Shown: positions 8,445 to 60,468 of the stretch, piece by piece
Numbering within the stretch: the stretch's first letter is position 1
How the letters are laid out: every line of letters starts with the position of its first letter
Source: Runella defluvii
GTDB taxonomy: Bacteria > Bacteroidota > Bacteroidia > Cytophagales > Spirosomataceae
Length of the DNA: 64,000 nucleotides
Assembly (NCBI RefSeq): GCF_014195535.1
Contig: NZ_JACIBY010000004.1
Span: forward strand, 1 to 64,000
Direction of reading: 5' to 3'
Notes under the pieces: generated by a model
Databases searched by the model: none
Told to the model about the DNA's origin: nothing
The model's input: the letters and a program-made list of their open reading frames with translations, nothing else
Program-made: the position numbers and the translations under genes

Positions 8445-8966
8445 GTGGCATTGATTACTTCGTGGCATTGGTTACTCCTAACCAATGCAGAGGTTTCTCA
8501 AAACCTCGTGGCTGATTTTTTATGAAGGTTTTGAGAAACCTGATTCTTCTGGATATGAGTATCCAGAAGCACGTGTATTGTGGCATTGATTACTCCTAAC
8601 CAATGCAGAGGTTTCTCAAAACCTCGTGCTGATTTTTCTTATAGAGGTTTTGAGAAACCTAATTCTTCTGGATATGCGTATCCAGAAGCACGTGTATTGT
8701 GACATTGGTTACTCCTAATCAATGCAGAGGTTTCTCAAAACCTCGTGCTGATTTTTCTTATGAAGGTTTTGAGAAACCTGAATCTTCTGGATATGAGTAT
8801 CCAGAAGCACGTGTATCGTGACATTGGTTACTCCTAACCAATGCAGAGGTTTCTCAAAACCTCGTGCTGATTTTTCTTATGAAGGTTTTGAGAAACCTAA
8901 TTCTTCTGGATATGAGTATCCAGAAGCACGTGTATTGTGACATTGGTTAGGAGTATCCAGAAGCAC
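8445..8966. repeat. Hairpin array A: about 119-bp tandem repeat, four copies plus ends
   Basis: Four full units start at 8466, 8584, 8703 and 8822 (period 118-119), with a fifth truncated unit at 8941-8966 and a partial one from 8445. Each unit holds, in order: CATTGGTT-actcct-AACCAATG; GAGGTTT-ctca-AAACCTC; AGGTTT-TGAG-AAACCT; and CTTCTGGATA-TGAG-TATCCAGAAG. The second and third hairpins are reverse complements of each other, so larger folds are also possible. The array fills most of the 626-base gap between the CWC gene (whose stop at 8972 lies 5 bases away) and the start of the copper monooxygenase gene at 8345. No coding frame is conserved through it. Confidence 0.9.
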
Positions 8967-8971
8967 ATACG

Positions 8972-9184
8972 CTACGTAGCCAGCAACACAGAAGTACGTG
9001 CTAGTTCCTGCAAACATTTTATGCACAAACAACCTTCATACTGCGTACGCAAATCAGAAAGTGTTTGTTCGGATAGCGTGATTTCTGAACAAACACATAA
9101 ACCCTGTGTTGTAAGCTGACAACGAAATGCTTGCCCACAGCGAGGGCAAACTGGAATTGGGCTTGAATTTGAGGAAGTTGCCAT
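8972..9184 (-). CDS. Small cysteine-rich CWC-family protein
   Basis: The 70-residue product has eight cysteines (residues 13, 16, 22, 30, 32, 52, 54, 57) in the pattern CPRCG-x5-C-x7-CxC-x19-CxCxxC, followed by LQEL. This matches the Cys_rich_CWC family; the central CWC signature reads CVC here. The Cys spacing implies a zinc- or iron-type metal site. Family members have no settled function. Downstream, the repeat array begins almost immediately after the stop codon, so the array is likely to be part of this transcript's 3' region. It is divergent from the padR gene, with a promoter for the latter in the 108-base spacer. Confidence 0.75.
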   Translation of the reverse strand: MATSSNSSPIPVCPRCGQAFRCQLTTQGLCVCSEITLSEQTLSDLRTQYEGCLCIKCLQELARTSVLLAT

Positions 9185-9211
9185 AAAATGGAAAAAAAAT
9201 TTCGCAGGTTG

Positions 9212-9243
9212 TTTGATATATAAAAAACTTATATATATATTTG
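9212..9243 (+). promoter_or_regulatory. Bacteroidetes-type promoter for the padR-tonB cluster
   Basis: TTTG at 9212-9215 and TATATTTG at 9236-9243 are separated by 20 bases, an exact fit to the TTTG-N19-21-TAnnTTTG consensus of the Bacteroidetes primary sigma factor. Transcription would start near 9250, about 43 bases before the ATG at 9293. Confidence 0.6.
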
Positions 9244-9292
9244 TTCACACAATTTAAGAAAATAGTAAGAAAACGAGCTAACCACCGATTTT

Positions 9293-9652
9293 ATGGAAGC
9301 ATCAAGTAATGAATTTTTACGAGGCACGCTCAAAACGATAGTATTAAAGCTTTTGGCCGAACAAGGACGTATGTACGGATATGAAATTACGCAGTCGGTC
9401 AAAGAGCGTACGAGCGGTGAAATAACGCTAACCTTTGGCGCGTTATATCCTGTGTTGCACAAGCTTGAACAAGACGGATTCCTGATGACAGAGTCAGAAG
9501 AAGTGGATGGACGGCTTCGCAAGTACTACTCGCTTACTCCGAGTGGAAATGCGACAGCCGTTCAGAAAGTGTCTGATTTTGAGCGCTTTGTTGAAGCTAT
9601 GCAAAGCTTGTTAAGACCCCAAAATGGGGAAATATCTCTCGCTAAACTCTGA
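9293..9652 (+). CDS. PadR-family transcriptional regulator
   Basis: The 119-residue product is a winged-helix repressor-type protein. The diagnostic N-terminal stretch includes LKLLAEQGRMYGYEIT, the recognition region is TFGALYPVLHKLEQDGFL, and the wing is EVDGRLRKYYSLTPSG. Its length fits small PadR proteins that dimerise through a short C-terminal helix. It is the first gene behind a good promoter, and the genes after it on the same strand encode an unusual TonB-module membrane protein and two TonB-domain proteins. It probably regulates this cluster, including itself. The effector is unknown. Confidence 0.9.
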   Translation: MEASSNEFLRGTLKTIVLKLLAEQGRMYGYEITQSVKERTSGEITLTFGALYPVLHKLEQDGFLMTESEEVDGRLRKYYSLTPSGNATAVQKVSDFERFVEAMQSLLRPQNGEISLAKL

Positions 9653-9683
9653 TTTTGGAATTGAATTCATAACCACTACCGAC

Positions 9684-10208
9684 ATGAAAAAATTAACTCC
9701 GCAACAACTTAGCACACTGCACGACCATCTTATTCGGCAAAACACCAATGATCGCTTAGTTTCCGAATTGCTCGATCACTTGGCTTGCGAAGCTGAAGAG
9801 TACCTCTGGAAAGGTTATAACTTTGATTTGGCGTTGGCAAAAATTACGCAAGAAGCCAACTCTATGGCTGTAAAGTACCTCCGAGATACCTACCAGCACG
9901 AGGTTGCCATGACCGAAGAACAACTTCAAAATGCGAGTTTGGACGATATTATCTTTGAGTTTCGCAACAAAGACTATGGTGCTTACGACCTGCGCCAAGC
10001 CTACCCATTTGCCTTGCGTAGTGCCTTAATTTTGGGAATTGGGTTGTTTTTGATGATGATGGCGTTTTTGTCGGGAATCGTCAAAGGCTCTTGGGACTTC
10101 TATTCTCCTTCAGGTTTAATGTGGGTGCTTGGCGTATCAGGGGTAGCCTATTCAATAGGCTCTTGGTTCCTGAAAAGCCGACAACTCAAGCAGTTGACAA
10201 CCACTTAA
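9684..10208 (+). CDS. Membrane protein carrying only a TonB-type N-terminal module
   Basis: The roughly 174-residue product starts at ATG 9684; an upstream ATG at 9624 lies inside padR and gives an unlikely leader. The N-terminal 75 residues form a helical segment (QLSTLHDHLIRQN, ELLDHLACEAEEYLWKGY) of the kind found next to PadR regulators in Bacteroidetes. Then comes LDDIIFEFRNKDYGAYDLR, followed by Y and a membrane helix, which closely resembles the N-terminus of the TonB protein at 10672 (LDDIVFAQRNQAYGAYELR). A second membrane helix follows, but there is no proline-rich linker and no TonB C-terminal domain. It may interact with ExbB/ExbD-like partners or with TonB; this is inferred from the shared module. 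Confidence 0.7.
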   Translation: MKKLTPQQLSTLHDHLIRQNTNDRLVSELLDHLACEAEEYLWKGYNFDLALAKITQEANSMAVKYLRDTYQHEVAMTEEQLQNASLDDIIFEFRNKDYGAYDLRQAYPFALRSALILGIGLFLMMMAFLSGIVKGSWDFYSPSGLMWVLGVSGVAYSIGSWFLKSRQLKQLTTT

Positions 10209-10248
10209 TTTGAAAATTGGTTAATTAATAACTAATTGATTTACAGCC

Positions 10249-10653
10249 ATGAAACTGCTTCAATGGAAGTGGTGCGGTATTGCTTTGTGTTTTTTTGTTT
10301 CATTGTCGGTAGTGGCACAAAACAATACTTCACGCGAGCCCGTCTTTTCATTTGTGGAGCAACCCCCATCGTTTAAGGGTGGAAAGGATTCTCTATCTCT
10401 TTTTTTGAGAAAACACTTTGTCAATCCCGAAGCGGCCAAAAGTGCCAACGTGAATTGTAAAGTGATGGTCAAGTTTATTGTAGAACCCACAGGGCAGTTG
10501 TCCGATATTGAACTAGCTTGGAGTGCTGGTCATGGCTGCGACGAAGAGTCTCTGCGGGTTGTAAAATTATTTCCTCCTTGGGAACCTGGGCGGCAAAGCG
10601 GAAAAGCCGTGCGGGTTCGAGTTCATTTGACTCTTAACTATCCGTTTCAATAA
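10249..10653 (+). CDS. Secreted TonB C-terminal-domain protein
   Basis: The 134-residue product has a Sec signal peptide (about 1-23, ending VVAQ) followed by a TonB_C domain, recognised by VMVKFIVEPTGQLSDIEL, GCDEESLRVVKLFPPWEPG and the terminal RVRVHLTLNYPF. Unlike a normal energy transducer it has no membrane anchor module or proline-rich spacer, so it would be free in the periplasm. It lies between the protein carrying only the TonB N-terminal module (40 bases upstream) and the full TonB (18 bases downstream). It might compete with or assist TonB contact with outer-membrane receptors. That role is inference; the domain call is secure. Confidence 0.85.
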   Translation: MKLLQWKWCGIALCFFVSLSVVAQNNTSREPVFSFVEQPPSFKGGKDSLSLFLRKHFVNPEAAKSANVNCKVMVKFIVEPTGQLSDIELAWSAGHGCDEESLRVVKLFPPWEPGRQSGKAVRVRVHLTLNYPFQ

Positions 10654-10671
10654 AATAGCCTAAATACAACC

Positions 10672-11493
10672 ATGAAGACAACAGTTTTAGCAGCGTATGA
10701 TACGCTGGATGACATCGTTTTTGCCCAAAGGAATCAAGCCTATGGGGCGTATGAACTACGGAAGTCGTACCCTAAAGTGCTCCAAAAAGCGCTTATTATT
10801 GGAGTTACGGTGTTTTTGCTTATGTTGCTCGTTCCGACCATCTATGGAAAACTAAAAACGAATGAGCAGGCGCAAATAAACATGAAAGAATACACGCTTG
10901 AGAAAGTGCAAATGGAGAAAAAAGAAGAAAAGCCGCTACCCGAACTCGAAAAGCCCAAGGAAGAACCTAAGGTGGCGTCGGTTCGGTATCGGGTACCTGA
11001 AGTGGTTGAAAATCCGCCTATTGAGGAGATTCCTCCTATGGTAGAGGACTTGGAAAAAGCCAATCCAGGACAAGAAACGGTAGCAGGAACATCGGACGAA
11101 GTGGCGGTAGTGGCGCCCGTGGAAGATGCGCCTGCTCCCGAAATTACAAAATCGGTGGAGGTGGAAGCCAAAGAACCCGAAGTATTTGAACGCGTGGAGG
11201 TTGATCCTGAGTTTGCGGGAGGAATCAATGGCTTACGTACATTTTTGATGAATAATTTAAGGTACCCATCGCAAGCACAACGCAGCAACGTGCAAGGAAG
11301 AGTCTATCTGAGTTTTACGGTTGAGCCAGATGGTTCGCTGTCCAACATTAATGTTACCCGAGGAGTTGGGTTTGGTTGCGACGAAGAAGCCGTGCGTGTG
11401 ATGAAACTCATGCCCAAATGGAAACCTGGCAAACAGTCGGGACGGGCAGTACGGGTAAAATTCAACATGCCCATTGTGTTTACGTTGGAATAA
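10672..11493 (+). CDS. Energy transducer TonB
   Basis: The 273-residue protein is a complete Bacteroidetes TonB. It has an N-terminal module with RNQAYGAYELRKSY, a membrane helix at about residues 40-60 (ALIIGVTVFLLMLLV), a long Pro/Glu/Lys-rich periplasmic spacer (about 80-185) and a TonB_C domain (about 190-272) with GRVYLSFTVEPDGSL and GFGCDEEAVRVMKLMP. It would couple the proton motive force to outer-membrane TonB-dependent receptors. No exbB or exbD lies nearby, so it must share an ExbBD complex encoded elsewhere. It is the last gene of the padR cluster and is followed by a hairpin at 11551. Confidence 0.92.
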   Translation: MKTTVLAAYDTLDDIVFAQRNQAYGAYELRKSYPKVLQKALIIGVTVFLLMLLVPTIYGKLKTNEQAQINMKEYTLEKVQMEKKEEKPLPELEKPKEEPKVASVRYRVPEVVENPPIEEIPPMVEDLEKANPGQETVAGTSDEVAVVAPVEDAPAPEITKSVEVEAKEPEVFERVEVDPEFAGGINGLRTFLMNNLRYPSQAQRSNVQGRVYLSFTVEPDGSLSNINVTRGVGFGCDEEAVRVMKLMPKWKPGKQSGRAVRVKFNMPIVFTLE

Positions 11494-11550
11494 AAAAGAA
11501 AGACATACAGCTATCAGTTATAATTACATCTCACACACTTGACAAAGCCT

Positions 11551-11574
11551 CCCGAGAACGTTGCTGTTCTCGGG
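11551..11574. terminator. Hairpin between convergent tonB and barrel genes
   Basis: CCCGAGAAC and GTTCTCGGG form a perfect 9-bp stem around a 6-base loop, 57 bases after the tonB stop. There is no long T-run, so it may end transcription weakly or act as a 3' stabiliser. Confidence 0.5.
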
Positions 11575-11624
11575 AATTGCTGTGTTATGAGTGGCCCTTT
11601 TCGACAAAACCAAGAAAAAGAACA

Positions 11625-11690
11625 CTTGCCCTTTGCCTCTTGCTCCTCGCCCCTTGCCTCTTCACTTGCTCCTTGCCCTTTGCTTTCTAC
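11625..11690. repeat. Degenerate heptamer repeat (TTGCCC type)
   Basis: The sequence is built from variants of (C)TTGCCC(T) and CTCTTGC in phase, for example CTTGCCCTTTGCCTCTTGC. The same motif makes up the in-frame insert in waaA at 23746-23828. It fills the space up to the stop codon of the barrel gene at 11687 and resembles the short tandemly repeated sequences found scattered in some bacterial genomes. Confidence 0.7.
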
Positions 11691-12373
11691 AATCCACCAA
11701 TTCGGTAATTGATACCTACAGAGGCAAAATAGGGGCTTCCAAAGCCGAGCTCGCCGTTTAGTCCAATGCGTTCGGTGACGTAGCCACGTAGCCCGAAGAC
11801 AATAACCTGTACTTGTGGCATGGCAAAACCTGCCCCTACTTTGTTGCCAATGATTCCGCGCCAAAGTCCGCCACCACCTGCTTCTTTGAAGATTTCATCC
11901 ATCTTGCCATCTACCGCGCTAGAACTTCCACTGACGCCCCAAATTCCAATCCCAAGCCGTACGCCTGAGTACATGTCAAGCCGATTGGCATTGCCGTAGT
12001 GAAATAGCGCCCGCGCACCAATTGTAAGGCGCGACACCCCCAAGGTAACGTCGCCGAGATTTTCGTTTTTCTTATAGACAACGTCGTTGAGCTGGAGCAA
12101 AGATTTGTTAAAACTGACGGCGCCACCTACCGAAAACCAGTGGTTGATGCCGTAATCGTAGGCAAGGTTGATTTGCGGAGTAGTCGAAGCTCGCCCCGAA
12201 GAAAAAGCGACAGTCGTGTCAGACGATTGGGTAGAACCTGTGATATTCCCCCGAAAAAAAGAAAATAAACTTACGCCCGACTGAACGCTTACAACATGCT
12301 TGTAATCTTCATTTTGTGCCGATGCACCTAGCGAACAGGCGACTAAACTTGCAACGAGAAAACTTTTTTTCAT
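11687..12373 (-). CDS. Outer-membrane beta-barrel protein
   Basis: The roughly 228-residue product starts at ATG 12373 (MKKSFLVASLVACSLGASAQ, a clear signal peptide); an upstream in-frame start at 12451 adds a leader of unlikely composition. The mature protein has repeated amphipathic strands with glycine and aromatic residues (VSVQSGVSLFSFFRGN, LNAELGFGSP-like, FASVGINYRIG at the end), typical of Bacteroidetes 8- to 10-stranded OmpW/OmpX-like barrels and porin-family proteins. It ends in a hydrophobic strand, as such proteins do. No ligand or function is evident. It stands alone, convergent with tonB, with a possible -7 box upstream at 12430. Confidence 0.75.
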   Translation of the reverse strand: MKKSFLVASLVACSLGASAQNEDYKHVVSVQSGVSLFSFFRGNITGSTQSSDTTVAFSSGRASTTPQINLAYDYGINHWFSVGGAVSFNKSLLQLNDVVYKKNENLGDVTLGVSRLTIGARALFHYGNANRLDMYSGVRLGIGIWGVSGSSSAVDGKMDEIFKEAGGGGLWRGIIGNKVGAGFAMPQVQVIVFGLRGYVTERIGLNGELGFGSPYFASVGINYRIGGL

Positions 12374-12429
12374 GGCTTTTACAATTAAATTAAATTTATT
12401 TTTTGGTATATAAAACGATAAAAATTCTG

Positions 12430-12437
12430 CAAATGTA
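12430..12437 (-). promoter_or_regulatory. Possible -7 element for barrel gene
   Basis: On the minus strand this reads TACATTTG, matching TAnnTTTG, 57 bases before the ATG at 12373. No TTTG -33 box is found at the expected spacing, so support is partial. Confidence 0.3.
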
Positions 12438-12609
12438 GTGAAAATCAACAATTAAGCATTTTTGACCGAGATGGAAGGTACTCTTTATCCCAAGAATATT
12501 AAAAAAAGCATTTGAAGAATACAGCATCATTATGCACTTTTGTAAAAAGCCCTACTGATAAACAACGTTTCAATGGTATTCTTTTCCAACTATTATTGGT
12601 ATATTCCAA

Positions 12610-15600
12610 ATGAAAAACATTTTATCAAGGCATCCGATTCGGTTAGTGTGGCTTTTAATATGTTTGTGGGTAAGTCATAACGGCTTTTCTCAGCGAACTA
12701 TTGCCAATCAAATCAACCAAATAAAAGGGAAAGTAACGCCTAAGCGATACCGCCCTTTTTCAACACCCTTCTCTTCGGCCAGGATTGCGGCCGATACCGC
12801 ATTTGTCGAAGGCGCAACAGTTCATCGGTTTTTGATGAATCAGCCAGAAGTAGGACAATTACAGCTGGACAACAGCAACTTTATCGAAATTTCGTTGCCA
12901 GTTTCGGCTACCAAGAACATTGATTTAGAACTGGTGCCTTACACTATCTTTGGTAAGAATTTCAAGGTTTTAAATGCCAAAAACGAAGTAGTTGAGCCGC
13001 AAAATTTGGGTAAATTTTACCAAGGAATTGTCAAAGGTGATAACCAATCTACTGCTTCAGTTAGTATCATTGATGGAAAAATCAGCGGGATAATTTCCCA
13101 AAAAGAAGGCAATTTTAATCTAGGCTTGGAGGGCGACTCGGGGAACTATATCCTGTTTAACGAGCAAGATTTAAAACAAAAATCGAACTTTACCTGTGCC
13201 GCCGATGAAATGCCTGTGCGGGTAATGGGCCAAAACTTGGTGAAGGAAACGCCCGCCACAAGTAGCCTCGCGAGCAACGTTGCGTGTGGATCGGTCGAAA
13301 TTTATTTGGAAGCCGATTCGGCCTTGTTTGGCCAGCAAGGGAGTTCAATCGCCAATACGGTCAATTACATCAATTCGGTTTTTAGCAAAGTGGCGACTTT
13401 GTACAGCAACGAAGGGCTGTCGGTTGTTATTTCCGAAATAAAAGTGTGGAATACCACCGACCCTTACGTGGGTTATACGAGTACGGGTAATGTGTTAAGT
13501 GCATTCCGTAGTACGATTGGTACATCGTTTAATGGCCGTTTGGCACATTTTTTAAGCGGACGAAGCCTGGGAGGTGGGGTTGCTTATATAGATGTGCTAT
13601 GTGCCAAATCGTACGGACATGGGGTGAGTGCAAACTTGAGCACATACAACCCTAATTTGCCTACTTATTCGTGGAATGTGGAAGTGATAACGCACGAGTT
13701 GGGCCATAATTTTGGCTCTCCCCACACCCAAAGCTGCTCGTGGCCAGGCGGCGCGCTCGACAACTGTTATGCCACCGAAGAAGGCTGTCCTCCTGGCCCT
13801 GCACCGACAAATGGTGGTACCATTATGAGTTATTGCCACTTGACATCAACGGGGATTAATTTTGCCAACGGATTTGGAATGTATCCTGGCAATTTGATTC
13901 GGAGTCGAGCGCAGGATTGTTTGGGAAGTGCCGTTGCGCCGTCTAATCTTGCTGTTCTTGAGGTGTATAATACCCAAGTGTTGGTTTCATGGACGCACAC
14001 GGCAGGGCTTTATACTGTCGAATACCGACAAGTAGGGGCGGGGGCGTGGATTTTAGCGGGTACGTCGGGAAACAAAAATCGGACAATTTCGTCTTTAACT
14101 CCTAATACGGCTTACGAATGGCGCGTCAATGCCAATTGCTCCGATTTTGTTACGGGGACTTTTACCACCAACAATACACCTTCGCCAGGTACCTACTGCA
14201 TTCCTACGCACACCAGTGGATGCACGTATGGTATTTTAATAACAAGTGTACTGCTGGGAGGAACCACTCTTAGCAGTAATTCAGACTGTGCTTCGGGCGG
14301 GTATAGTTTTATCACTTCTCCTGTTAAAAGCTTGACATTAGGGCAGTCAAATAGTTTTACGGTGTCATTGGAAGGATATTATAACCCTGCTCAAATTGCC
14401 ATTTGGGTCGATTTGAATAAAGATGCTCAGTTTCAGGCAAACGAAAGGCTTTTTACCACAACTTCTGCCAGAACACAGGCAATCACAGGAACCATTACTG
14501 TGCCAGCAGGAAGCAGTATTGGCCAAACCCGAATGAGAATTATTGTCAATTTTAGTAGCACCCCCACCAACCCATGTGGTACTTATACGTATGGTGAAAC
14601 CGAAGACTATTACGTCAACCTTGTTTGTCCAGCACCTACCGCTTATACGGTGACAGGTGGAGGTAGTTTTTGTAGTGGAGGAGCGGGGGTGGCTGTGGGG
14701 TTAAGTGGCTCACAGACAGGGGTATCGTATCAATTAAAACGTGACAATACCGACGTAGGAACAGCCATGACGGGGACTGGCAATGCGTTGGTCTTTGGAA
14801 ATCAAACTGTTGCGGGTTCATACACTGTGTGGGCGACCCCGTCGGGTTGTACAGCGACAGCCATGACGGGTTCCGTCTCGGTAAGTGTCATGGCTAATCA
14901 GACCTTGGCAGCGGGAGTAACGGTAAATGCTACAAGCTGCGGAGGTACCAATGGTATCATACCTTTTACGACCACAAACGTATCAAATGGAAGTTATCAA
15001 TTGAGTTACACGGGAGCAGGCAGTCCCAAAACCGTGACAGTAAGTAACAATGCGTTTTCATTAACGGGTTTATCCGTAGGGACGTATAGTAATTTTTCGA
15101 TGACGGTGAATGGCTGTACCGCGAGTGATGCGACGACCAAAACGGTGAGTAATCCACCAAGTCCAGTATTGACTTCAGGGGCAATAACCAACGCCACCGT
15201 CTGTGGAGCTTCCGACGGGAGCATTGCTTTTTCAACGTCTTTTGTAACAAGTGGTACGTATCAGTTGAGTTACACGGGAGCGGGAAGTCCCAAGACCGTG
15301 ACAGTGAGCAATAACGCGTTTATATTGGCGGGTTTGTCGGTGGGAACGTACAGTAATTTTTCGATTACGGCCAACAACTGTACGGGTACTGATGCGACGT
15401 CCAAAACGGTCGCTTATTCAATAGTGCCGACTTTAGCAGCGGGAGTAACGGTAAACGCTACAAGCTGCGGAGGAACCAATGGTAGCATACCTTTTACGAC
15501 CACGAACGTATCGAATGGAAGTTATCAATTAAGTTACACGGGAGCAGGCAGTCCCAAAACTGTGACAGTAAGTAACAATGCGTTTTCTTTAACGGGTTTA

Positions 15601-17961
15601 TCCGTAGGGACTTATAGTAATTTTTCGATGACGGTGAATGGCTGTACCGCGAGCGATGCGACGACCAAAACGGTGAGTAATCCACCAAGTCCAGTATTGA
15701 CTTCGGGGGCAATAACCAACGCCACCGTCTGTGGAGCTTCCGACGGGAGCATTGCTTTTTCAACGTCTTTTGTAACAAGTGGTACGTATCAGTTGAGTTA
15801 CACGGGAGCGGGAAGTCCCAAGACCGTGACAGTGAGCAATAACGCGTTTATATTGGCGGGTTTGTCGGTGGGAACGTACAGTAATTTTTCGATTACGGCC
15901 AACAACTGTACGGGTACTGATGCGACGTCCAAAACGGTCGCTTATTCAATAGTGCCGACCTTGGCAGCGGGAGTAACGGTAAATGCTACAAGCTGCGGCG
16001 GTGCCAATGGTAGCATACCTTTTACGACCACAAACGTATCGAATGGAAGTTATCAATTGAGTTACACGGGAGCAGGCAGTCCCAAAACCGTGACAGTAAG
16101 TAACAATGCGTTTTCTTTAACGGGTTTATCCGTAGGGGCGTATAGTAATTTTTCGATGACGGTGAATGGCTGTACCGCGAGCGATGCAACGACCAAAACG
16201 GTGAGCAATCCACCAAGTCCAGTATTGACTTCGGGGGCAATAACCAACGCCACCGTCTGTGGAGCTTCCGACGGGAGCATTGCTTTTTCAACGTCTTTTG
16301 TACCAAGTGGTACGTATCAATTGAGTTACACGGGAGCAGGCAGTCCCAAGACCGTGACAGTGAGCAATAACGCGTTTGTATTGGCGGGTTTGTCGGTGGG
16401 AGCGTACAGTAATTTTTCGATTACGGCCAACAACTGTACGGGTATCGATGCGACGTCCAAAACGGTCGCTCATTCATTAATGCCGACCTTAGCGGCAGGA
16501 ACGGTAACTCCGTCGGCTACTTGTGGCGGTACGGATGGCGCTATTGCCTTTACGACAACCAATATTCCAAGCGGAAATTACCAACTTTCTTACACAGGTA
16601 CTGGCAGTCCCAAAACAGTAGCTATTGCCAACAATTTGTTTACCCTAGCCAATATACCAGCAGGAGTGTATAGCAATTTTACTATTGTCGTGAATGGTTG
16701 CACGGCACTTGACCCAACCTCAAAAACGGTTAATACTCCTACGTCGATTGGGCTGTTGGCAAGTACAGTAACCAATCCTACGACCTGCGGAGGAGCCAAC
16801 GGTAGCGTTGCGTTTACCACTACGAATATCCCCAGCGGGAATTACCAACTATCGTTTGTCGGTACAGGAAGTCCCAAAACCGTGTCGATTGTCAACAATG
16901 CTTTTACGTTAGCCAACCTCTCCGCAGGAACGTACAAAAACTTTTCTATTTCGTACAACTCCTGTGTTGCACTTGACACAACAACCCAAAAACTGGTCGA
17001 GCCAACACCTCCCAATGCAGGTAGCATTTCGGGAGCATTAGCTCTTTGTGTAGGTGTTCCTAATACGCTGACTACGAACGGAGTAGCGGGCGGAACGTGG
17101 AGCAGCGCAACGCCTTCGGTCGCGGCCATTCATCCAACTTCGGGGGTTATAACGGGGGGCAGTGCAGGAAGTAGCCTGATTACTTATACCGTAAATGCCA
17201 ACGGATGCTCGGCCAGCACTACTGCCACCGTGACGGTCAACGTTGCGAGTGCTGGAGGTAATTTGGCAGGAAGTGGGGCGGTTTGTACGGGTACCAACAG
17301 CTCGGTATTGACGTTGTCGGGCTACACGGGGGCATTGCAAAAGTGGCAATGGGCACTCACGCCTGATTTTAGTTCGGCTACCGATGTTTTCATTGCCGCC
17401 ACCAGCGTGACCACACAGAACCTGACGCAAACGATGTACTATCGTGTTATTATCAAAAACGGGGTTTGTGATGCAGTTAGTTCGCCTACTGCCACCATCA
17501 CCGTCAATCCACTTCCAACGGTCGGTTTTAGCGGCACAGCATCTATCTTCGTGGGCAATACTACCACAGTGTTCCCCGCAACGGGCGGGACTTGGATAAG
17601 CAATAGTTCAGTCAAAGCCAGTGTTACAAACGCAGGATTAGTGACGGGTTTGGAAGCAGGAACGGCCACATTTACCTTTACGGATACGACAACAGGCTGT
17701 AAAAATACTACCTCAACTTTGGTCGTGACCAATAATAGTAATTCTCCTTGTAACCAGACGATTACGTTGACAAGCCCAACCGATGACATTGCGACGGGTA
17801 GTGTGCTGAAACAATCCAATAACAGCATTAGGGCGGCCAATCGAGTGACAGGTACAACGACGGCGGTGACGTACCAGTCAGGTTCTTCGGTAACGCTCCA
17901 GCCAGGTTTTCAGGCCGAAGCAGGGACGGTGTTTAAAGCGCAAATAGGTGGGTGTAATTAA
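12610..17961 (+). CDS. Giant secreted reprolysin-like metalloprotease with repeats
   Basis: The 1783-residue protein has a signal peptide (1-28), a propeptide-like region to about residue 200, and a zinc metalloprotease domain with HELGHNFGSPH (H362, E363, H366, H372) and the Met-turn IMSYCH near residue 407, as in M12B/reprolysin-type metzincins. A fibronectin-III-like domain follows (about 437-515), then a GEVED-type domain (about 520-690, ending YGETEDYYV). Next come eight modules of about 88 residues (766-1470), six of them nearly identical in pairs, then Ig-like repeats. The C-terminus (about 1705-1783) has LQPGFQAEAGTVFKAQI and ends Gly-Cys-Asn, like the 3-coathanger-stack/GCX-COOH sorting domains of Bacteroidetes. 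It is probably exported to the surface or medium to digest proteins. Confidence 0.88.
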   Translation: MKNILSRHPIRLVWLLICLWVSHNGFSQRTIANQINQIKGKVTPKRYRPFSTPFSSARIAADTAFVEGATVHRFLMNQPEVGQLQLDNSNFIEISLPVSATKNIDLELVPYTIFGKNFKVLNAKNEVVEPQNLGKFYQGIVKGDNQSTASVSIIDGKISGIISQKEGNFNLGLEGDSGNYILFNEQDLKQKSNFTCAADEMPVRVMGQNLVKETPATSSLASNVACGSVEIYLEADSALFGQQGSSIANTVNYINSVFSKVATLYSNEGLSVVISEIKVWNTTDPYVGYTSTGNVLSAFRSTIGTSFNGRLAHFLSGRSLGGGVAYIDVLCAKSYGHGVSANLSTYNPNLPTYSWNVEVITHELGHNFGSPHTQSCSWPGGALDNCYATEEGCPPGPAPTNGGTIMSYCHLTSTGINFANGFGMYPGNLIRSRAQDCLGSAVAPSNLAVLEVYNTQVLVSWTHTAGLYTVEYRQVGAGAWILAGTSGNKNRTISSLTPNTAYEWRVNANCSDFVTGTFTTNNTPSPGTYCIPTHTSGCTYGILITSVLLGGTTLSSNSDCASGGYSFITSPVKSLTLGQSNSFTVSLEGYYNPAQIAIWVDLNKDAQFQANERLFTTTSARTQAITGTITVPAGSSIGQTRMRIIVNFSSTPTNPCGTYTYGETEDYYVNLVCPAPTAYTVTGGGSFCSGGAGVAVGLSGSQTGVSYQLKRDNTDVGTAMTGTGNALVFGNQTVAGSYTVWATPSGCTATAMTGSVSVSVMANQTLAAGVTVNATSCGGTNGIIPFTTTNVSNGSYQLSYTGAGSPKTVTVSNNAFSLTGLSVGTYSNFSMTVNGCTASDATTKTVSNPPSPVLTSGAITNATVCGASDGSIAFSTSFVTSGTYQLSYTGAGSPKTVTVSNNAFILAGLSVGTYSNFSITANNCTGTDATSKTVAYSIVPTLAAGVTVNATSCGGTNGSIPFTTTNVSNGSYQLSYTGAGSPKTVTVSNNAFSLTGLSVGTYSNFSMTVNGCTASDATTKTVSNPPSPVLTSGAITNATVCGASDGSIAFSTSFVTSGTYQLSYTGAGSPKTVTVSNNAFILAGLSVGTYSNFSITANNCTGTDATSKTVAYSIVPTLAAGVTVNATSCGGANGSIPFTTTNVSNGSYQLSYTGAGSPKTVTVSNNAFSLTGLSVGAYSNFSMTVNGCTASDATTKTVSNPPSPVLTSGAITNATVCGASDGSIAFSTSFVPSGTYQLSYTGAGSPKTVTVSNNAFVLAGLSVGAYSNFSITANNCTGIDATSKTVAHSLMPTLAAGTVTPSATCGGTDGAIAFTTTNIPSGNYQLSYTGTGSPKTVAIANNLFTLANIPAGVYSNFTIVVNGCTALDPTSKTVNTPTSIGLLASTVTNPTTCGGANGSVAFTTTNIPSGNYQLSFVGTGSPKTVSIVNNAFTLANLSAGTYKNFSISYNSCVALDTTTQKLVEPTPPNAGSISGALALCVGVPNTLTTNGVAGGTWSSATPSVAAIHPTSGVITGGSAGSSLITYTVNANGCSASTTATVTVNVASAGGNLAGSGAVCTGTNSSVLTLSGYTGALQKWQWALTPDFSSATDVFIAATSVTTQNLTQTMYYRVIIKNGVCDAVSSPTATITVNPLPTVGFSGTASIFVGNTTTVFPATGGTWISNSSVKASVTNAGLVTGLEAGTATFTFTDTTTGCKNTTSTLVVTNNSNSPCNQTITLTSPTDDIATGSVLKQSNNSIRAANRVTGTTTAVTYQSGSSVTLQPGFQAEAGTVFKAQIGGCN
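14908..16491 (+). repeat. Three 528-bp tandem repeats inside the protease gene
   Basis: Units start at 14908, 15436 and 15964, with only scattered base differences between them. Each unit encodes two related 88-residue modules (LAAGVTVNATSCGG and LTSGAITNATVCGA). Two more divergent modules follow to about 17020. Identity this high over three copies points to recent duplication or ongoing gene conversion, and copy number may vary between strains. Confidence 0.93.
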
Positions 17962-18034
17962 ACACCCCCATTTTTGATTGCCCTAAACTTTGGCGAACTT
18001 TGCGTTGGGTAAACATCCAATGCCTTTAATTACT

Positions 18035-19843: not shown

Positions 19844-19877
19844 TCCAACCGTTTTTATTTTTATAACAGCCAAATCT

Positions 19878-22517: not shown

Positions 22518-22540
22518 AACTTAACTTCCCGAAAGTTTAG

Positions 22541-22573: not shown

Positions 22574-22579
22574 GGGAAG

Positions 22580-25102: not shown

Positions 25103-25108
25103 AAGGTG

Positions 25109-47796: not shown

Positions 47797-47837
47797 AAAT
47801 ACCGAGGTTAAGTAGCCCTAATAGTACGCTGATGCGT

Positions 47838-47872: not shown

Positions 47873-47898
47873 TCTTTCTTTAACCGACACCAACTAAG

Positions 47899-48990: not shown

Positions 48991-48992
48991 CA

Positions 48993-49236
48993 GGGTCAGA
49001 CGACAGTCAGACCCTAATCAGGTGATAGCAAACGGTCTGACTATTGTCTGACCTGCGTACAACACCAAGCCTATTTTGGGTCAGACGGTAGTCAGACCCA
49101 AAATAGATGATAGCAAACTAGTAAACGGTCTGACTATCGTCTGACCTGCGTGTAACATCAAGCCCATTTGGGGTCAGACGGTAGTCAGACCCAAATAACA
49201 AATTTTAAACATAAACGGTCTGACTACCGTCTGACC
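48993..49236. repeat. Hairpin array B: alternating GGGTCAGAC / GGTCTGAC elements
   Basis: Six 20-22-bp elements alternate: GGGTCAGAC-type at 48993, 49078 and 49171, and GGTCTGAC-type at 49034, 49127 and 49217. The element at 49217-49236 is the exact complement of the inner 20 bases of 49078 and 49171, so any adjacent pair can fold. Each element also folds on itself with one A-A or T-T mismatch. The linkers GATAGCAAAC and CTGCGT(G/A)(T/C)AACA(C/T)CAAGC repeat too, giving a period of about 85-93 bases. The array fills the 257-base gap between the NagX-like and metallophosphoesterase genes. Confidence 0.9.
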
Positions 49237-49247
49237 TCTGTGAAAGT

Positions 49248-50180: not shown

Positions 50181-50199
50181 CGGGTAAAAGCCTCTTTTT

Positions 50200-52614: not shown

Positions 52615-52621
52615 TTTTACG

Positions 52622-52653
52622 ACCTTCCCGAAAGTTTTAAACTTTCGGGAAGG
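52622..52653. terminator. Palindromic hairpin, same family as at 22541
   Basis: The sequence ACCTTCCCGAAAGTTTT and its complement form a nearly perfect stem 8 bases after the stop of glucuronidase-like B and 16 bases before the stop of the convergent cold-shock gene. It shares 32 bases with the hairpin at 22541. Confidence 0.7.
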
Positions 52654-52668
52654 AGAGTCAGTATGAAA

Positions 52669-53115: not shown

Positions 53116-53313
53116 TTGGTACTTGGTTTAATGATGGTATTTCTTTGAATTAAATTGTGTAGCAGAGATACCAAAGAATTAAAGAATGCGGTTTGACGGC
53201 GTAGATTAATTGCCTTGTGTGATTGTACAACTAAAGGGAAGCGAACAAAAACAGGAAGTATTGGTATGCTGATAAACTTTCTAACAACAAACATACCATT
53301 ATAATTTCACTAT

Positions 53314-53348
53314 CTCTTCCCAAAAGTTTCAAAACTTTTAGGAAGAGG
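53314..53348. terminator. Imperfect hairpin after purple-acid-phosphatase-like gene
   Basis: TCTCTTCCCAAAAGTTT pairs with AAACTTTTAGGAAGAGG with two mismatches. It lies 31 bases past the stop of the minus-strand gene at 53380 and is a diverged member of the palindrome family at 22541 and 52622. The rest of the 53116-53379 spacer has no gene; a CTGATAAAC site occurs at 53269. Confidence 0.55.
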
Positions 53349-53379
53349 TAATTTCGCCCTTCAGATGGCGTATATTGGT

Positions 53380-54777: not shown

Positions 54778-54793
54778 AGTAAAGGTCACTGAC

Positions 54794-55774: not shown

Positions 55775-55807
55775 AAAAGCGAAAGTTTTCAATGAATACG
55801 TTGTTGT

Positions 55808-57928
55808 TTATTTGTGCTTGGCGTTTTTAAGATTGGGCTTGGAGCGCCATGTAGCTTCAGGCCCGAAACGGGTAAAGTACGTCTTTTTATCTAATTTTTC
55901 GTACGGTGGATACGCATAAATAAAGCGATTGGTTGACAAAAAAAAGACACTGACAACGGCAACGGTACTCAGTGCGCGTATCCAGGCTTTTTTATACAAA
56001 CCGCTAAAAGATTGTTGTTGAAAATGGCTAAAGGTTTCACTACTATCAAAAATAGGCTCGTGCTCGCGTGGTAAGGTCAGTAACAGGAATGAAACCAGCA
56101 TGGCATTGACGGTAATGACCCATTCGGTGAGCAAACGCGATGGATGCCAGCCAACGAGCGCGCGTTCAAAGTTGCCAATAATCATAACCCAAAGCAAGAC
56201 CAGCAAAAGTAATTGTCCTTTGCCCAACCACGTTTTGGGGAATAAAGCAAGGGGCTCTTTGAAATGGCGTTTGAGGAGGAAGGCAAACAAGGCTACCAGC
56301 AGCAACCACGTCAGTCGAAACCAACCTTCGGGCGTAAAATGGAGAAAATCAATGTAAGGGAGGCGGCCCAAATAGGGGACATCCCAAAGCGCAGGGACGG
56401 TTTCGGTACTTCCGTCGGAAAGTGTGATAGCCTGAGTCCAAACTTCTTGGTTGAGTCGTTCGCCCCATTCACTAACATTTTTAAATAGGTTGACGTACGT
56501 AATTCCGAGTAATACAAAAAGCGTCATTCCGCCCAATGCCCATTTTTCAGCCGACGTTTTTTGCGGTGAAGGGGCTGATAAAGGCAGACGTGCCGCTAAG
56601 ATGGCAAACAAAGCCGCGATGGCAATGCCATTGACGAAACCATAGCTTTGTTCCAAGAAACTATGCCAGTTTTGTTGTTGCCAATTGCTCCAAAGCGCCA
56701 GTTGTTGAGTTTCGGTAGCAGGTAAAATTCGGGGACTTCCAAAGGCCATCAAGAGTTGTTTTATCCACTGAATGCCCGAAAAACCCAGCCCACCTATCGT
56801 GCCGCAAACAATGGATGCAAACGCTACTGATTGGTAACCATTACGTCGCATCCAGAGAATCATTCCTACAAATACGCCCGTAATCCCTGCCCAGTCGTCG
56901 CTGCGCGGAGGTGTCATGCGCAAACCGCCAATGGACGTAAAAAAAAGGCTTCCTAGCACGGGGAAAATCAGAAACGAAACCAGCCACCCGCCTGCCATAT
57001 ATACAATGAGTGAAGAGCCATCGCGGAATTTGCCGAAACGATTAAAATAAAAGGTAATGCCTACCACGGCTCCGATGAACCAACCGACGTGCTGGGGGTA
57101 ATCGCCAAACCATTGAGGCCAGTTGTTCAGGAAGTTATGGGCGTCAAAGGCCACTTTTTTCGTTTCGGGGTCGATGTAGGTAGGGTCTCCCAGCGTATAG
57201 GTAAGCGCAGCGGCAAGCGATGGTAATACCCCCGTTTTTTGTAAAACCCATTGCCCTACTAAACCCACGAGCGCACCGCCTAGCAAGCAGAGCGGCAACC
57301 AAAAGCTCTTTTTGAAACGTTGTTCCCACGTATCGTACAAACCCGCCGCGAGTAGTGCAAAAAAGGCAGGTAGGTAGTCGGCATCAAACCAGTAAAGCGG
57401 GCTTTTGTGCCGTGACCAAGTATGGTCAAATGCAATGCCCGACTGTAGCCAGTTGGCAACAGGATCTTCGATGAGGTCTAAGACGAGCCAAGTCGCAAAT
57501 AACCACCAAATGGGTTTTGTCAGGCGAATAAGGGTCGATTTGTCGGCAGCAGCGGCTAGTGCCGTTCCTGCACCTCCCAAGGCGGCCCACAAAAAACCAA
57601 TGTAGAACAAGGTGACATAACCGTAGAGTTGAGAAGGGGCGTGGCCGCTTTCGGTGGATGAAATGACTTGCATGTACGAAATGGAACCTCCAAATCCCCA
57701 ACCAATTGCTCCAAAAAAAGCAAAATAGAGTACTTTTTCGCGCCAGTCGGGGCGACCAGAAAGCAAACAACCCGTGATGGCCGCCAAACATCCTGCAAAA
57801 GCAGCGCCATATTCATGTCCGAAGTTTCCGCGGATACCCCAACCAATGCCCAACGAAAGTCCTACCGTTACAAACGTTGACAGTCGCCGACTAGGGGTTG
57901 GGGTTGATGTAAAAAGTGACGTTAACAT
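55808..57928 (-). CDS. Multi-pass membrane protein B (RGNFGHEYGAA family)
   Basis: The 706-residue protein has about fifteen or more membrane helices. It is the paralogue of the 435-residue protein at 34159: both contain GHEYGAA near the N-terminus (RGNFGHEYGAAFAG), GAIGWGFGG, FLWAALGGAG-like glycine-rich helices and MTPPRSDDWAG. This copy has an extra central region (about 150-300) and a longer C-terminus (FRLTWLLLVALFAFLLKRHF). I know no named function. Its place between the HpcH/HpaI aldolase (17 bases upstream) and the Gfo/Idh/MocA gene (33 bases) suggests a membrane step, perhaps transport, in the same route. Confidence 0.68.
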   Translation of the reverse strand: MLTSLFTSTPTPSRRLSTFVTVGLSLGIGWGIRGNFGHEYGAAFAGCLAAITGCLLSGRPDWREKVLYFAFFGAIGWGFGGSISYMQVISSTESGHAPSQLYGYVTLFYIGFLWAALGGAGTALAAAADKSTLIRLTKPIWWLFATWLVLDLIEDPVANWLQSGIAFDHTWSRHKSPLYWFDADYLPAFFALLAAGLYDTWEQRFKKSFWLPLCLLGGALVGLVGQWVLQKTGVLPSLAAALTYTLGDPTYIDPETKKVAFDAHNFLNNWPQWFGDYPQHVGWFIGAVVGITFYFNRFGKFRDGSSLIVYMAGGWLVSFLIFPVLGSLFFTSIGGLRMTPPRSDDWAGITGVFVGMILWMRRNGYQSVAFASIVCGTIGGLGFSGIQWIKQLLMAFGSPRILPATETQQLALWSNWQQQNWHSFLEQSYGFVNGIAIAALFAILAARLPLSAPSPQKTSAEKWALGGMTLFVLLGITYVNLFKNVSEWGERLNQEVWTQAITLSDGSTETVPALWDVPYLGRLPYIDFLHFTPEGWFRLTWLLLVALFAFLLKRHFKEPLALFPKTWLGKGQLLLLVLLWVMIIGNFERALVGWHPSRLLTEWVITVNAMLVSFLLLTLPREHEPIFDSSETFSHFQQQSFSGLYKKAWIRALSTVAVVSVFFLSTNRFIYAYPPYEKLDKKTYFTRFGPEATWRSKPNLKNAKHK

Positions 57929-57945
57929 GCCGATGGGAGGTTACG

Positions 57946-58758
57946 TCAGATGACTAAATTGGGGGAATCATCGGATTGAACGGTGTCTCCAACGGCTTGT
58001 TTAATCACCGAAAGGTCATGACGGAGGCGTTGGGTAAAGAGGGCAATGTCAAAACTATGCACCACAATATTGGCCCCTTCGTTGATCCATTTGATTTGGC
58101 GCTCGGGTTCCAGCGAAAAATGAATGCCAATCGCGAGTCCATGGGCGCGGGTTTTATGAATGATGGTGCGAACGGCTTCCTCAAAAACGGGATGGTCGTA
58201 CTGCTCGGGTAAGCCCAGACTCACCGACAAATCGTGCGGGCCAATGAACACGGCATCTAAGCCTTTGACCGACAATAAATCGTCGAGGCGTTCGAGGGCA
58301 GGCACACTTTCGATGTTGGCAATACAAATGTTGGCGGCGTTGTGGTTGGCAATATACTGCGCGAGTTCGGCAGGCATTTCTGCGCCTTCGTGGAGGTATT
58401 GGTGCAGCACTTCGCCTTTCAGTGGGCGGTACTTTACGCCACCTACCAGCTCGCGAATTTGGGTGACGGATTCTAAATATGGTGCAACCACTCCCAACGC
58501 GCCGCCGTCAATCACTTGGCAAGCCAAAAATGGGTCGGGGCTAGGAATACGAACGATGGGCGTTATGTCCAAAGCGCGGAAAATTTGGCACATTTTGGCC
58601 AATTCGCCACGGTCTAGCGGAATGTGTTCGGTATCAATAAATACAAAATCAAGCCCTACTTTTTTGAGCGCCGCAGGCCACATAGGTGAGGTGGACGTAA
58701 AGCAAGTGCCATAGACATTTTGGCCGTTTTGTAGTTTTTGGAGTAAGCTAAGGGTCAT
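57946..58758 (-). CDS. HpcH/HpaI-family aldolase
   Basis: The 270-residue protein belongs to the class II HpcH/HpaI aldolases (2-keto-3-deoxy-glucarate and 2,4-dihydroxyhept-2-enedioate aldolase type). Metal- and substrate-binding segments are FVFIDTEHIPLDRGEL, VRIPSPDPF, GALGVVAPYLES, IANIESVPALERLDDL (with its metal Glu) and FIGPHDLSVSLG. It would split a 2-keto-3-deoxy acid into pyruvate plus an aldehyde, or run a related reaction. It is the first gene of the operon that continues with membrane protein B, the oxidoreductase and the phosphatase, and suits degradation of an acidic sugar such as a uronate. Confidence 0.88.
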   Translation of the reverse strand: MTLSLLQKLQNGQNVYGTCFTSTSPMWPAALKKVGLDFVFIDTEHIPLDRGELAKMCQIFRALDITPIVRIPSPDPFLACQVIDGGALGVVAPYLESVTQIRELVGGVKYRPLKGEVLHQYLHEGAEMPAELAQYIANHNAANICIANIESVPALERLDDLLSVKGLDAVFIGPHDLSVSLGLPEQYDHPVFEEAVRTIIHKTRAHGLAIGIHFSLEPERQIKWINEGANIVVHSFDIALFTQRLRHDLSVIKQAVGDTVQSDDSPNLVI

Positions 58759-58920
58759 GGTTGGAATCTGAAAAGGAAGTGTTTCTTAATAACAACGGTA
58801 GAAGTAATACGTTTGGGGCAAAGGATGAGGCTATTTATATGAGAATCTATTTTGGCACGTTTATTGGGAAAAGGTAATTTATTCACCAAAGGTGAGCAAC
58901 ATCAATAACTGTAAAAGACA

Positions 58921-59952
58921 ATGGAAGCACCGAAAGAATTTGTAGCTTTGCTTCGAGATACACAAATGATTTTGGACAGTATGCCTGACGAAGCCCTCGA
59001 TATATCGGTGGTTATACCACTTTTCAACGAAGAAGAATCTCTACCTGAACTTACTGCGTGGATAAAACGCGTGATGGATGAGCACCAATTTAGCTACGAA
59101 GTGTTGCTTATCGACGACGGAAGTTCCGACGATTCTTGGTCAATCATTCAAAAATTGGCGGTCGATAATCCGAGTATCAAAGGAATTCGTTTCAACCGCA
59201 ACTATGGCAAAACGCCTGCTTTGCAAACGGGTTTTCAGGTGGTAAAAGGCAAAGTGGTCATTACGATGGACGCCGACCTCCAAGATAGTCCCGACGAAAT
59301 TCCAGAGCTATACCGAATGATTACCGAAGACGGGTACGATTTGGTGTCGGGCTGGAAACAAAAACGGTATGATCCGCTTAGTAAGACGCTTCCTACGAAG
59401 TTGTTTAATGCCGTAACGCGCAGTATTTCAGGGGTATATCTTCACGATTTTAACTGCGGATTGAAAGCCTATAAACAGCGAGTGGTAAAAAATATCACAC
59501 TTTATGGCGAAATGCACCGCTACATTCCTGTGGTGGCTAAGTGGAATGGTTTCCGTAAAATCGGGGAAAAAGTGGTGCAACACCGCGCTCGTAAATACGG
59601 AAGCACGAAGTTTGGTTTAGAGCGTTTTGTCAATGGCTTTTTGGACTTACTTTCGATTACGTTTGTTCACCGCTTTAGCAAAGCGCCGATGCACTTCTTT
59701 GGCCTGTGGGGAACGCTCTCGTTTCTGATTGGTTTTTTGATTACGACGGGGTTGATTATCAAGAAATTGTACTTGATTTATACCCACGAACCTTATCGAA
59801 ATGTGACCGAAAATCCGCTGTTTTACTTGGCGTTGGTTGCCATAGTCATCGGATTTCAACTTTTTCTAGCAGGGTTTTTAGGCGAAATGATGGTGAAGCA
59901 ACATACCGTCAAACAACCCGATTATCTGGTTTCGGAACAGATTGGAGTTTAG
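58921..59952 (+). CDS. Polyprenyl-phosphate glycosyltransferase (DPM1/GtrB-like)
   Basis: The 343-residue GT2 enzyme has VVIPLFNEEESLPELT, the acidic loop LLIDDGSSDDSW, the DADLQDSPDEI metal site and an RHRARKYGSTKFG-like (HRARKYGSTKFG) acceptor motif. Two C-terminal membrane helices follow (about 255-285 and 300-325). Such proteins move a sugar from a nucleotide donor to undecaprenyl or dolichyl phosphate for later transfer across the membrane. It starts at ATG 58921; an in-frame ATG at 58966 is possible. It is a single gene divergent from the aldolase operon, and its 3' end runs straight into hairpin array C, whose far end carries a strong terminator. Confidence 0.88.
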   Translation: MEAPKEFVALLRDTQMILDSMPDEALDISVVIPLFNEEESLPELTAWIKRVMDEHQFSYEVLLIDDGSSDDSWSIIQKLAVDNPSIKGIRFNRNYGKTPALQTGFQVVKGKVVITMDADLQDSPDEIPELYRMITEDGYDLVSGWKQKRYDPLSKTLPTKLFNAVTRSISGVYLHDFNCGLKAYKQRVVKNITLYGEMHRYIPVVAKWNGFRKIGEKVVQHRARKYGSTKFGLERFVNGFLDLLSITFVHRFSKAPMHFFGLWGTLSFLIGFLITTGLIIKKLYLIYTHEPYRNVTENPLFYLALVAIVIGFQLFLAGFLGEMMVKQHTVKQPDYLVSEQIGV

Positions 59953-59953
59953 C

Positions 59954-60468
59954 GTGTGGTTGGTTACTTATAGCCAACCTGAGGTTGCTCCCCGCAGAAC
60001 TTACCAAGTTTTTGAAAAACCTTGAGCGTCAGATTTAAGAATCTGACGTCACTTGTCGTGTGGTTGGTTACTTATAACCAACCTGAGGTTGCTTACAACC
60101 GAATTTACCAAGGTTTTGAAAAACCTTGAGCGTCAGATTTGAGAATCTTACGTCACTTGCCGTGAAGTTGGTTACTTATAACCAACCTGAGGTTGCTCAC
60201 AACCTAATTTGCCAAGTTTTTGAGAAACCTTGAGCGTCAGATTTGAGAATCTGACGGCACTTGTTGTGTGGTTGGTTACTTATAACCAACCTGAGGTTGC
60301 TCCCCGCATAGTTTACCAAGGTTTTGAGAAACCTTGAGCGTCAGATTTGAGAATCTGACGTCACTTGTCGTGTGGTTGGTTCCTTATAACCAACCTGAGG
60401 TTGCTCACAACCGAATTTACCAAGGTTTTGAGAAACCTTGAGCGTCAGATTTGAGAATCTGACGGCAC
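59954..60468. repeat. Hairpin array C: five 104-bp tandem repeats
   Basis: Units start at 59954, 60058, 60162, 60266 and 60370, exactly 104 bases apart. Each holds, in order: GGTTGGTT-actt-ATAACCAACC; AGGTTG-ctca-CAACCT (lost in two units); CAAGGTTT-TGAG-AAACCTTG; and CGTCAGATT-TGAG-AATCTGACG. The array begins one base after the stop codon of the glycosyltransferase and ends 7 bases before an intrinsic terminator, so it should be transcribed as a 3' untranslated region of about 520 nucleotides. Hairpin order and the TGAG/CTCA loops match array A. It occupies most of the 59953-60584 gap. Confidence 0.93.

Follow-up and report, generated by a model that had tools for sequence, protein, structure and literature searches.

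Hairpin arrays in the Runella defluvii window

The window is a 64,000-nt stretch of Runella defluvii (Bacteroidota, Spirosomataceae; contig NZ_JACIBY010000004.1 of assembly GCF_014195535.1, positions 1 to 64,000 of the forward strand). It holds two tandem arrays of hairpins, A and C, whose full unit consists of two half-units placed head to head. Each half-unit comprises a GTGN foot, a hairpin (H1) with a 9-bp stem and a 4-nt loop, a spacer of 1–4 nt and a second hairpin (H2) with a similar 4-nt loop, often GAGGTTT-CTCA-AAACCTC, the last two features as seen in alignment A1, described below. Numbered along the full unit, hairpins 3 and 4 correspond to H2 and H1 of the second half-unit, which lies on the opposite strand. 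Here we describe the hairpin family to which these arrays belong and relate it to a gene for a REP-associated tyrosine transposase (RAYT; REP, repetitive extragenic palindrome). The arrays and their neighbouring open reading frames (ORFs) are as follows.

6981-8345, minus strand: copper monooxygenase-like ORF, left of array A, which lies upstream of it
8445-8966: array A, composed of four complete inverted doublets, each about 119 bp long, with a stub at either end
8445-8459, plus strand: half-hairpin stub of array A with GTG foot, 5′ arm and first two loop bases
8462-8507, plus strand: array A unit 1, forward half-unit; GTGG, H1 CATTGGTTA-CTCC-TAACCAATG, H2 GAGGTTT-CTCA-AAACCTC
8525-8572, minus strand: array A unit 1, inverted half-unit; on the minus strand GTGC, TTCTGGATA-CTCA-TATCCAGAA, then the second hairpin
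8580-8691: array A unit 2; half-units 8580-8625 (plus) and 8644-8691 (minus)
8699-8810: array A unit 3; half-units 8699-8744 (plus) and 8763-8810 (minus)
8818-8929: array A unit 4; half-units 8818-8863 (plus) and 8882-8929 (minus)
8937-8966: 3′ end stub of array A, the foot and 5′ arm of hairpin 1 fused to the 3′ part of hairpin 4
8972-9184, minus strand: 70-aa ORF with several cysteines, a putative gene directly adjoining array A on the right
9293-9652, plus strand: PadR-type regulator, beyond the 70-aa ORF
58921-59952: glycosyltransferase ORF, left of array C, which follows directly after its stop codon
59954-60468: array C, five units of about 104 bp
60058-60102, plus strand: array C unit 2, forward half-unit; GTGT, H1 GGTTGGTTA-CTTA-TAACCAACC
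60110-60156, minus strand: array C unit 2, inverted half-unit; on the minus strand GTGA, CGTAAGATT-CTCA-AATCTGACG, with one mismatch
60422-60468, minus strand: array C unit 5, inverted half-unit; on the minus strand GTGC, CGTCAGATT-CTCA-AATCTGACG
about 60469-60505: long inverted repeat, right of array C; the next ORF is OmpA-like

The initial annotation had described arrays A and C as diverged copies of one four-hairpin repeat, with the same hairpins in the same order and with stem bases that change together on both arms while the loops stay the same. Direct reading of the sequence and a hairpin scan recover the hairpins in this order in both arrays, and the paired stem changes that it quoted are present. 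Tandem Repeats Finder (TRF) confirms the positions, placing array A at 8462-8949 (period 119, 4.1 copies, 94% matches) and array C at 59953-60468 (period 104, 5.0 copies, 90% matches); in array C, hairpin 2 is broken in two of the five units (units 1 and 4). The loops are not all constant, because that of hairpin 1 is CTCC in array A and CTTA in array C; the loop of hairpin 4 is TGAG in A and mostly TGAG in C. Kissing loops between the halves, conceivable where CTCA meets its reverse complement TGAG, were considered and rejected: with these loop pairs, CTCC with TGAG and CTTA with mostly TGAG, complementarity between the halves is not kept.

A genome-wide family with a fixed foot

The arrays are members of a family found throughout the genome of the strain (8.0 Mb, 50 contigs). 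A DNA search of this genome with array C gave 27 matches, and a 14-bp core, GGTTTTGAGAAACC, occurs 251 times (138 + 113), compared with 0 copies of the same pattern read backwards. The covariance-model search that the initial annotation had suggested, carried out here with a model of 43 half-units, gave at least 149 matches at E 0.001 or better in the genome, and relatives also match.

For this model, half-units were picked by their hairpins (a loop starting with CT and the core G[GA][AT]T), and the 59 hairpin pairs found were reduced to 44 rows by dropping repeated sequences, loops other than 4 nt, rows with N and lengths outside 45–50 nt; alignment A1 holds 43 of the 44, locus L017 being excluded. 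GTG was no condition of this selection, and it stands at the same place in all 44 distinct half-units, which come from 17 loci. Because loci were chosen for their matches, being retrieved only where the family matched, the foot and hairpin counts here and below describe the arrays and not the whole genome.

A scan of 57 loci for any trinucleotide followed by a 9-bp stem (at most one mismatch) with any 4-nt loop returned 203 hairpins with a GTG foot; the runner-up trinucleotide gave 24, and the median across all 64 was 6. The fourth base of the foot varies (GTGC 102, GTGT 52, GTGG 26, GTGA 23), and the loops are CTCA in 146 hairpins, CTCC in 27, CTTA in 14 and others in 16.

Stems private to each array

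The 203 hairpins fall into 93 array-strand groups with 70 distinct representative arms. On average, arms differ at 0.39 of 9 positions within groups (225 pairs), and representatives of different groups at 3.93 (4278 pairs). Sequence is almost unconstrained at the outer four stem positions, whereas GGNT predominates at the inner ones. Each array thus has nearly uniform stems that are private to it and that mostly still pair.

The pairing was measured in two ways. In the 43-row alignment, 95.5% of cells pair, compared with 33–53% in slid versions, and 124 cells are changed on both sides, compared with 37.1 in shuffles. A sharper test used 249 candidates chosen by their 5′ side only, reduced to one per locus and strand (n = 81). 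Among these 81, Watson-Crick pairing at the four outer stem positions is seen in 57, 64, 61 and 70, whereas the shuffled means are 22.4, 25.9, 24.3 and 22.1 and the maxima over 2000 shuffles 36, 42, 36 and 34; each of the four outer pairs shows all four pair types. Stem pairs 6 and 8 are invariant and hence uninformative, all nine pairs are formed in 45 of the 81 representatives, and five or fewer are formed in ten.

It had been proposed that selection acts on the fold and not on the sequence, either in RNA or as DNA cruciforms. The outer-pair counts bear out the first half of this statement, in that stems are kept by pairing, but conservation of sequence is also seen, in the GTG foot, the loop and most of the stem core GGNT. 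The RNA part is disfavoured: a fold kept in RNA should favour G.U, and G.T makes up only 16 of the 65 non-Watson-Crick cells in the 203-hairpin set and 23 of 103 in the 81-representative test, about what is expected from unselected single changes. The pairing pattern points to DNA, in single-stranded form.

Arrays in sister genomes

Comparison with relatives shows how the arrays change at a fixed site. At loci of genome G010 where both array flanks were matched (20 G010 loci and a few others retrieved), stems mostly agree and the number of units differs; exceptions include L016/L213, in which H1 is wholly different and H4 identical, and L174/L209, in which the stem differs. Array A of Runella limosa (G003) carries CGTTGGTTA/TAACCAACG where the window has CATTGGTTA/TAACCAATG, with both arms changed in all four units. 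At the same site, G010 retains a fused remnant, and nothing is present in G007. For the array C site, 11 relatives were compared across a few hundred bases: arrays are present in G010 and G003, a half-unit in G007 and one unit with other stems in G012 and G001, and six have none. Flanks of array A were also matched, in whole or in part, in nine other genomes of the genus, and the array C site in G004; these were left out of the comparison. The Runella limosa array C (L148) is interrupted by an insert of well over 1 kb.

Genomic placement and truncated copies

Hairpin clusters lie outside ORFs of 120 aa or more, as called by a simple caller, in 61 of 62 cases. Their neighbouring ORFs are convergent in 21 cases, tandem in 34 and divergent in 5, with one neighbour missing; the caller is blind to small ORFs, and array A is counted as divergent despite the 70-aa minus-strand ORF at 8972-9184.

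Among 43 candidate truncated copies, 21 end at positions 15–18 from GTG, that is, in the loop (14–17) or one base after it, and many directly precede a full copy; three of the 43 rows (L009, lengths 52–60) are another hairpin of the unit and are still counted. These truncation points fit strand switching or cutting at the hairpin loop.

A RAYT gene inside an array of the family

Pfam family PF01797 has seven matches in the genome of the strain. One is a RAYT gene (G000:C4:567,261-567,848) on the same contig as arrays A and C, about 507 kb from array C, that sits inside an array of the hairpin family with units on both sides. Its product scores 101.3 bits with NF047646 (REP-associated tyrosine transposase; cut-off 80). 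The other six PF01797 loci have no hairpins of the array A/C family within the flanks examined, some of which are truncated by the end of a contig; a different hairpin family is present at L032, one of these six loci.

Five RAYT homologues all carry NHIH; the Y motif is YIHNNP in two and YMHNNP in the three from the window's genus. We take HIH and the Y before [IM]HNNP to be the catalytic residues, as in the HuH-Y1 family generally. The W motif reads IWDD, IWED or IWEE in the five homologues and IWTD in consensus A3. A sequence search of the PDB gave a sole match at E 0.1 or better, 4er8 (TnpArep, E 2e-4). The AlphaFold model of the Runella limosa homologue (mean pLDDT 70.6, with five residue blocks below or near 60) gives as its best fold match 4er8_A (E 4e-7), in which a RAYT is complexed with a REP hairpin; the IS608 and ISDra2 transposases come next.

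Other RAYT-like genes of the genome also lie beside hairpins. Gene G000:C1:854492-854884 (L039; NF047646 32.8 bits, below the cut-off) has hairpins of a second family, GTCTGACNNNNGTCTGAC, on both sides. Six GGCACGAGGC...GCCTCGCGCC hairpins flank another RAYT gene, G000:C2:562156-562623 (L034; 99.2 bits, above the cut-off), and may represent one more REP family of this genome. Hairpins of the form GTAGAGAC...GTCTCTAC (L036 1282 and L037 1426) adjoin RAYT-like matches on contigs C9 and C3.

Association across lineages

Homologues of the RAYT protein were taken from Runella limosa, Spirosoma validum, S. arboris, a Spirosoma metagenome-assembled genome (MAG), a Flavobacterium record, a Runella MAG and an Ignavibacteriales MAG; genomes G158 and G194 encode RAYT proteins with the same sequences as those of S. 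validum and S. arboris. On the flanks of RAYT, hairpins that follow the plan of arrays A and C (loops CTCA, CTTA or CTTC) occur in the window's genus at loci whose gene is intact, at the Spirosoma loci and in G056, from another family. G073 and the Flavobacterium record have the same hairpin plan with loops CCC and CCCC/CCCT. In S. validum (L115, L218) the flanking hairpins were found by the model and not by the strict scan for GTG and a 9-bp stem. No such half-unit was seen at the locus of the Ignavibacteriales RAYT (38% identity). The link to hairpins is one of close homologues only, because at 22 loci around more distant RAYT-like genes (L092-L113) the model found no match at E 0.01. A tree of 15 RAYT homologues, in which loop type was set against protein, was mostly unresolved.

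RAYT and hairpins co-occur, with exceptions given below. Among 59 genomes, with a close RAYT defined by at least 47% identity and 110 bits, eight have RAYT and hairpins, none RAYT only, three hairpins only and 48 neither. Fisher tests of the co-occurrence give p = 7e-8 for these genomes and 1.6e-8 for a sample of 200 family members, both values being descriptive, given that the samples overlap and relatedness is uncontrolled. Within the window's genus (13 genomes), the three with an intact RAYT gene have at least 103 model matches each; G001, G002 and G007, with a broken or partial RAYT, and G009, G011 and G012, with no close RAYT, have 17–41; and the remaining four have no model match.

Relation to known systems

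According to PMC8049555, RAYTs are bacterial transposases that have been domesticated and whose exact function is unknown. Subclass 2.6, which includes RAYT group 5, is reported to occur mostly in Bacteroidetes, flanked by atypical secondary structures without GT[AG]G (PMC6006769). As in the subclass 2.6 REPtrons of that account, the present system comes from Bacteroidetes, its RAYT gene is flanked by atypical hairpins that lack a GT[AG]G consensus and have copies elsewhere in the genome, and the protein has an NHIH motif, two serines (SS) following the Y motif and a length of about 180 aa. The HuH motif agrees with the definition given there (NH[LIV]H); the Y motif, defined there as YIH[QN]NP, has this form in two of the five homologues and M for I in the three of the window's genus (Y[IM]HNNP overall). 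Unlike the WQ of subclass 2.6, the W motif here is WD, WE or WT (PMC6006769). Because WQ is lacking, we place the system, from its sequence motifs, as close to subclass 2.6 and not as a proven member. A two-hairpin half-unit, a kept loop and array-private stems have no counterpart in the main-text account of subclass 2.6 (PMC6006769; supplements aside).

A REPIN, the doublet form of REPs, is described as two inverted REPs with a short, diverse spacer (PMC8049555). Like REPINs in that description, the present elements have two inverted REP-like halves and a spacer, are non-autonomous and are tied to a RAYT; unlike them, they have two hairpins per half, stand in tandem arrays of units of about 100–130 bp and have stems mostly not common to loci. 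Like canonical REPs, they are high-copy palindromes outside genes, as the 251 core copies illustrate, but GT[AG]G is not the consensus of their foot.

Enzymatic work on other groups, as presented in PMC8266576, provides further points of comparison. The E. coli group 2 TnpAREP needs GTAG and a stem bulge and no particular loop, and E. coli REPs, which occur in bacterial interspersed mosaic elements (BIMEs), are processed as single strands (PMC8266576). The present family shares the link to a RAYT, and differs in its GTGN foot, the absence of a bulge and the kept loop. In two group 3 systems (Stenotrophomonas and Marinomonas), loop bases are critical; in the Stenotrophomonas REPtron, cleavage was improved by changes at the three bottom stem positions and modestly affected by changes elsewhere in the stem (PMC8266576). 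Group 3 REPtrons resemble the present family in their perfect short stems and critical loop bases, and are unlike it in their GTAG foot, single hairpin per REP and other loops (PMC8266576). By analogy, the present family looks like a natural version of this loop-critical kind.

A literature search on Runella or Spirosoma REP or palindromic repeats, RAYT and REPtron/TnpAREP found no description of this family among the matches listed. The REP/RAYT kind is already known; new here is a two-hairpin half-unit with a kept foot and loop and free, array-private stems in REPIN/BIME-like arrays. The targets of subclass 2.6 are called only atypical in the main-text account (PMC6006769), and the family gives targets of this type a concrete anatomy. 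It is also a natural mutagenesis set, with 70 distinct representative stem arms on a kept foot and loop in one genome and with loop CCC in other lineages, and a few oligonucleotides would suffice to test what a RAYT reads.

Interpretation

Arrays A and C are, in our judgement from sequence comparison, probably REPIN/BIME-like, non-autonomous elements, putatively served by a RAYT that resembles TnpAREP subclass 2.6 (RAYT group 5). We place them with REP and REPIN elements because the RAYT gene lies inside one array of the family and the same association recurs in other lineages. In this explanation the RAYT, a HuH-Y1 enzyme encoded elsewhere on the contig in a larger array of the family, would serve arrays A and C and would recognise their foot and loop while the DNA is single-stranded, as it is at replication forks, for instance. 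It would need the stem only as a stem and would seldom start arrays at new places. Through strand switching or unequal recombination, units would be gained and lost locally, which would homogenise each array, so that each would drift to its own compensated stem pair. More specifically, and here we are doubtful, the family may be a loop-read, stem-blind HuH system in which the GTG foot and the 4-nt loop mark the targets, each locus keeps a private stem pair, and strands break or switch in the loop, giving half-hairpin stubs and local growth, shrinkage and homogenisation.

Several observations weigh against this placement. First, and chiefly, a close RAYT is absent from 25 of the 36 hairpin-positive genomes in a sample of 200 family members, and from 3 of 11 in the 59-genome sample. 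In the larger sample, where RAYT was called at E 1e-25, a cut that hides more distant homologues, 11 genomes have RAYT and hairpins, one RAYT only, 25 hairpins only and 163 neither; five of the 25 have a single weak match each, all in one genus. Loss of RAYT is likely the cause of the hairpin-only genomes, and is assumed. The two samples also overlap, and relatedness is uncontrolled. Second, G056 has an uninterrupted RAYT gene and only two model matches; in the hairpins beside the gene GTG and CTCA are kept but the stem cores are different, and the model (R1) may score such hairpins low. Third, the foot is GTGN and not GTAG or GTGG, and the private stems argue against frequent recent copying between loci. 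Fourth, in the 43-row alignment the number of pairs with two-sided change is 10, with 9.2 in shuffles (201 of 500 as high), and that of pair types 24, with 21.9 in shuffles (93 of 500 as high), so that neither count rises above the shuffled level. Fifth, in hairpin 4 of the Runella limosa array C, a single uncompensated mismatch is common to five of the six inverted half-units counted, and the sixth carries a different one at that pair; compensation is therefore not immediate.

Alternatively, the compensation could come from the mutation process, by hairpin-templated quasipalindrome correction together with array homogenisation, with little selection on the fold and a link to RAYT that is historical. 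Intermediates are indeed few, as 65 of 1827 cells are not Watson-Crick (in hairpins preselected for at most one mismatch), and the same two-arm change separates the four units of the Runella limosa array A from the window. However, the kept GTG foot and loop are left unexplained, and mismatches common to the units of an array mean that correction is not immediate. We therefore regard this process as an unlikely explanation by itself, although it could act together with service by a RAYT.

That the arrays act in RNA, as terminators, mRNA stabilisers or other 3′ untranslated-region (UTR) elements, with compensation reflecting selection on an RNA fold, is distinctly improbable. Such a role would suit array C, which begins directly behind a stop codon and is followed by a long inverted repeat, and would also suit the 21 clusters between convergent ORFs, compared with 5 between divergent ones. 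G.U is, however, not preferred; an Rfam scan of the window at gathering score gave no match; a consensus scan found no terminator-like site in the array C region and only two in the array A region, both weak and on the minus strand; and the presence of the hairpins tracks a transposase gene. It is very unlikely that the arrays are sites for a host DNA-binding protein, spread for host benefit with RAYT as a passenger, since, although the clusters lie outside ORFs, a duplex-DNA binder would not require outer stems that are free in sequence yet paired, and 4 of 13 genomes of the genus lack any model match.

Other repeats in the window

Array B (window 48995-49235) consists of the second hairpin family, GTCTGACNNNNGTCTGAC, whose stem has a central T.T mismatch. 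This pattern has 160 copies in the genome, compared with 0 for the pattern read backwards; in 26 copies the next outer pair is Watson-Crick in 26 of 26, with three pair types, and the following one in 18 of 26. At 14899-16470, inside a 1783-aa ORF (12610-17961), lie six copies (69% matches) of a 264-bp tandem repeat.

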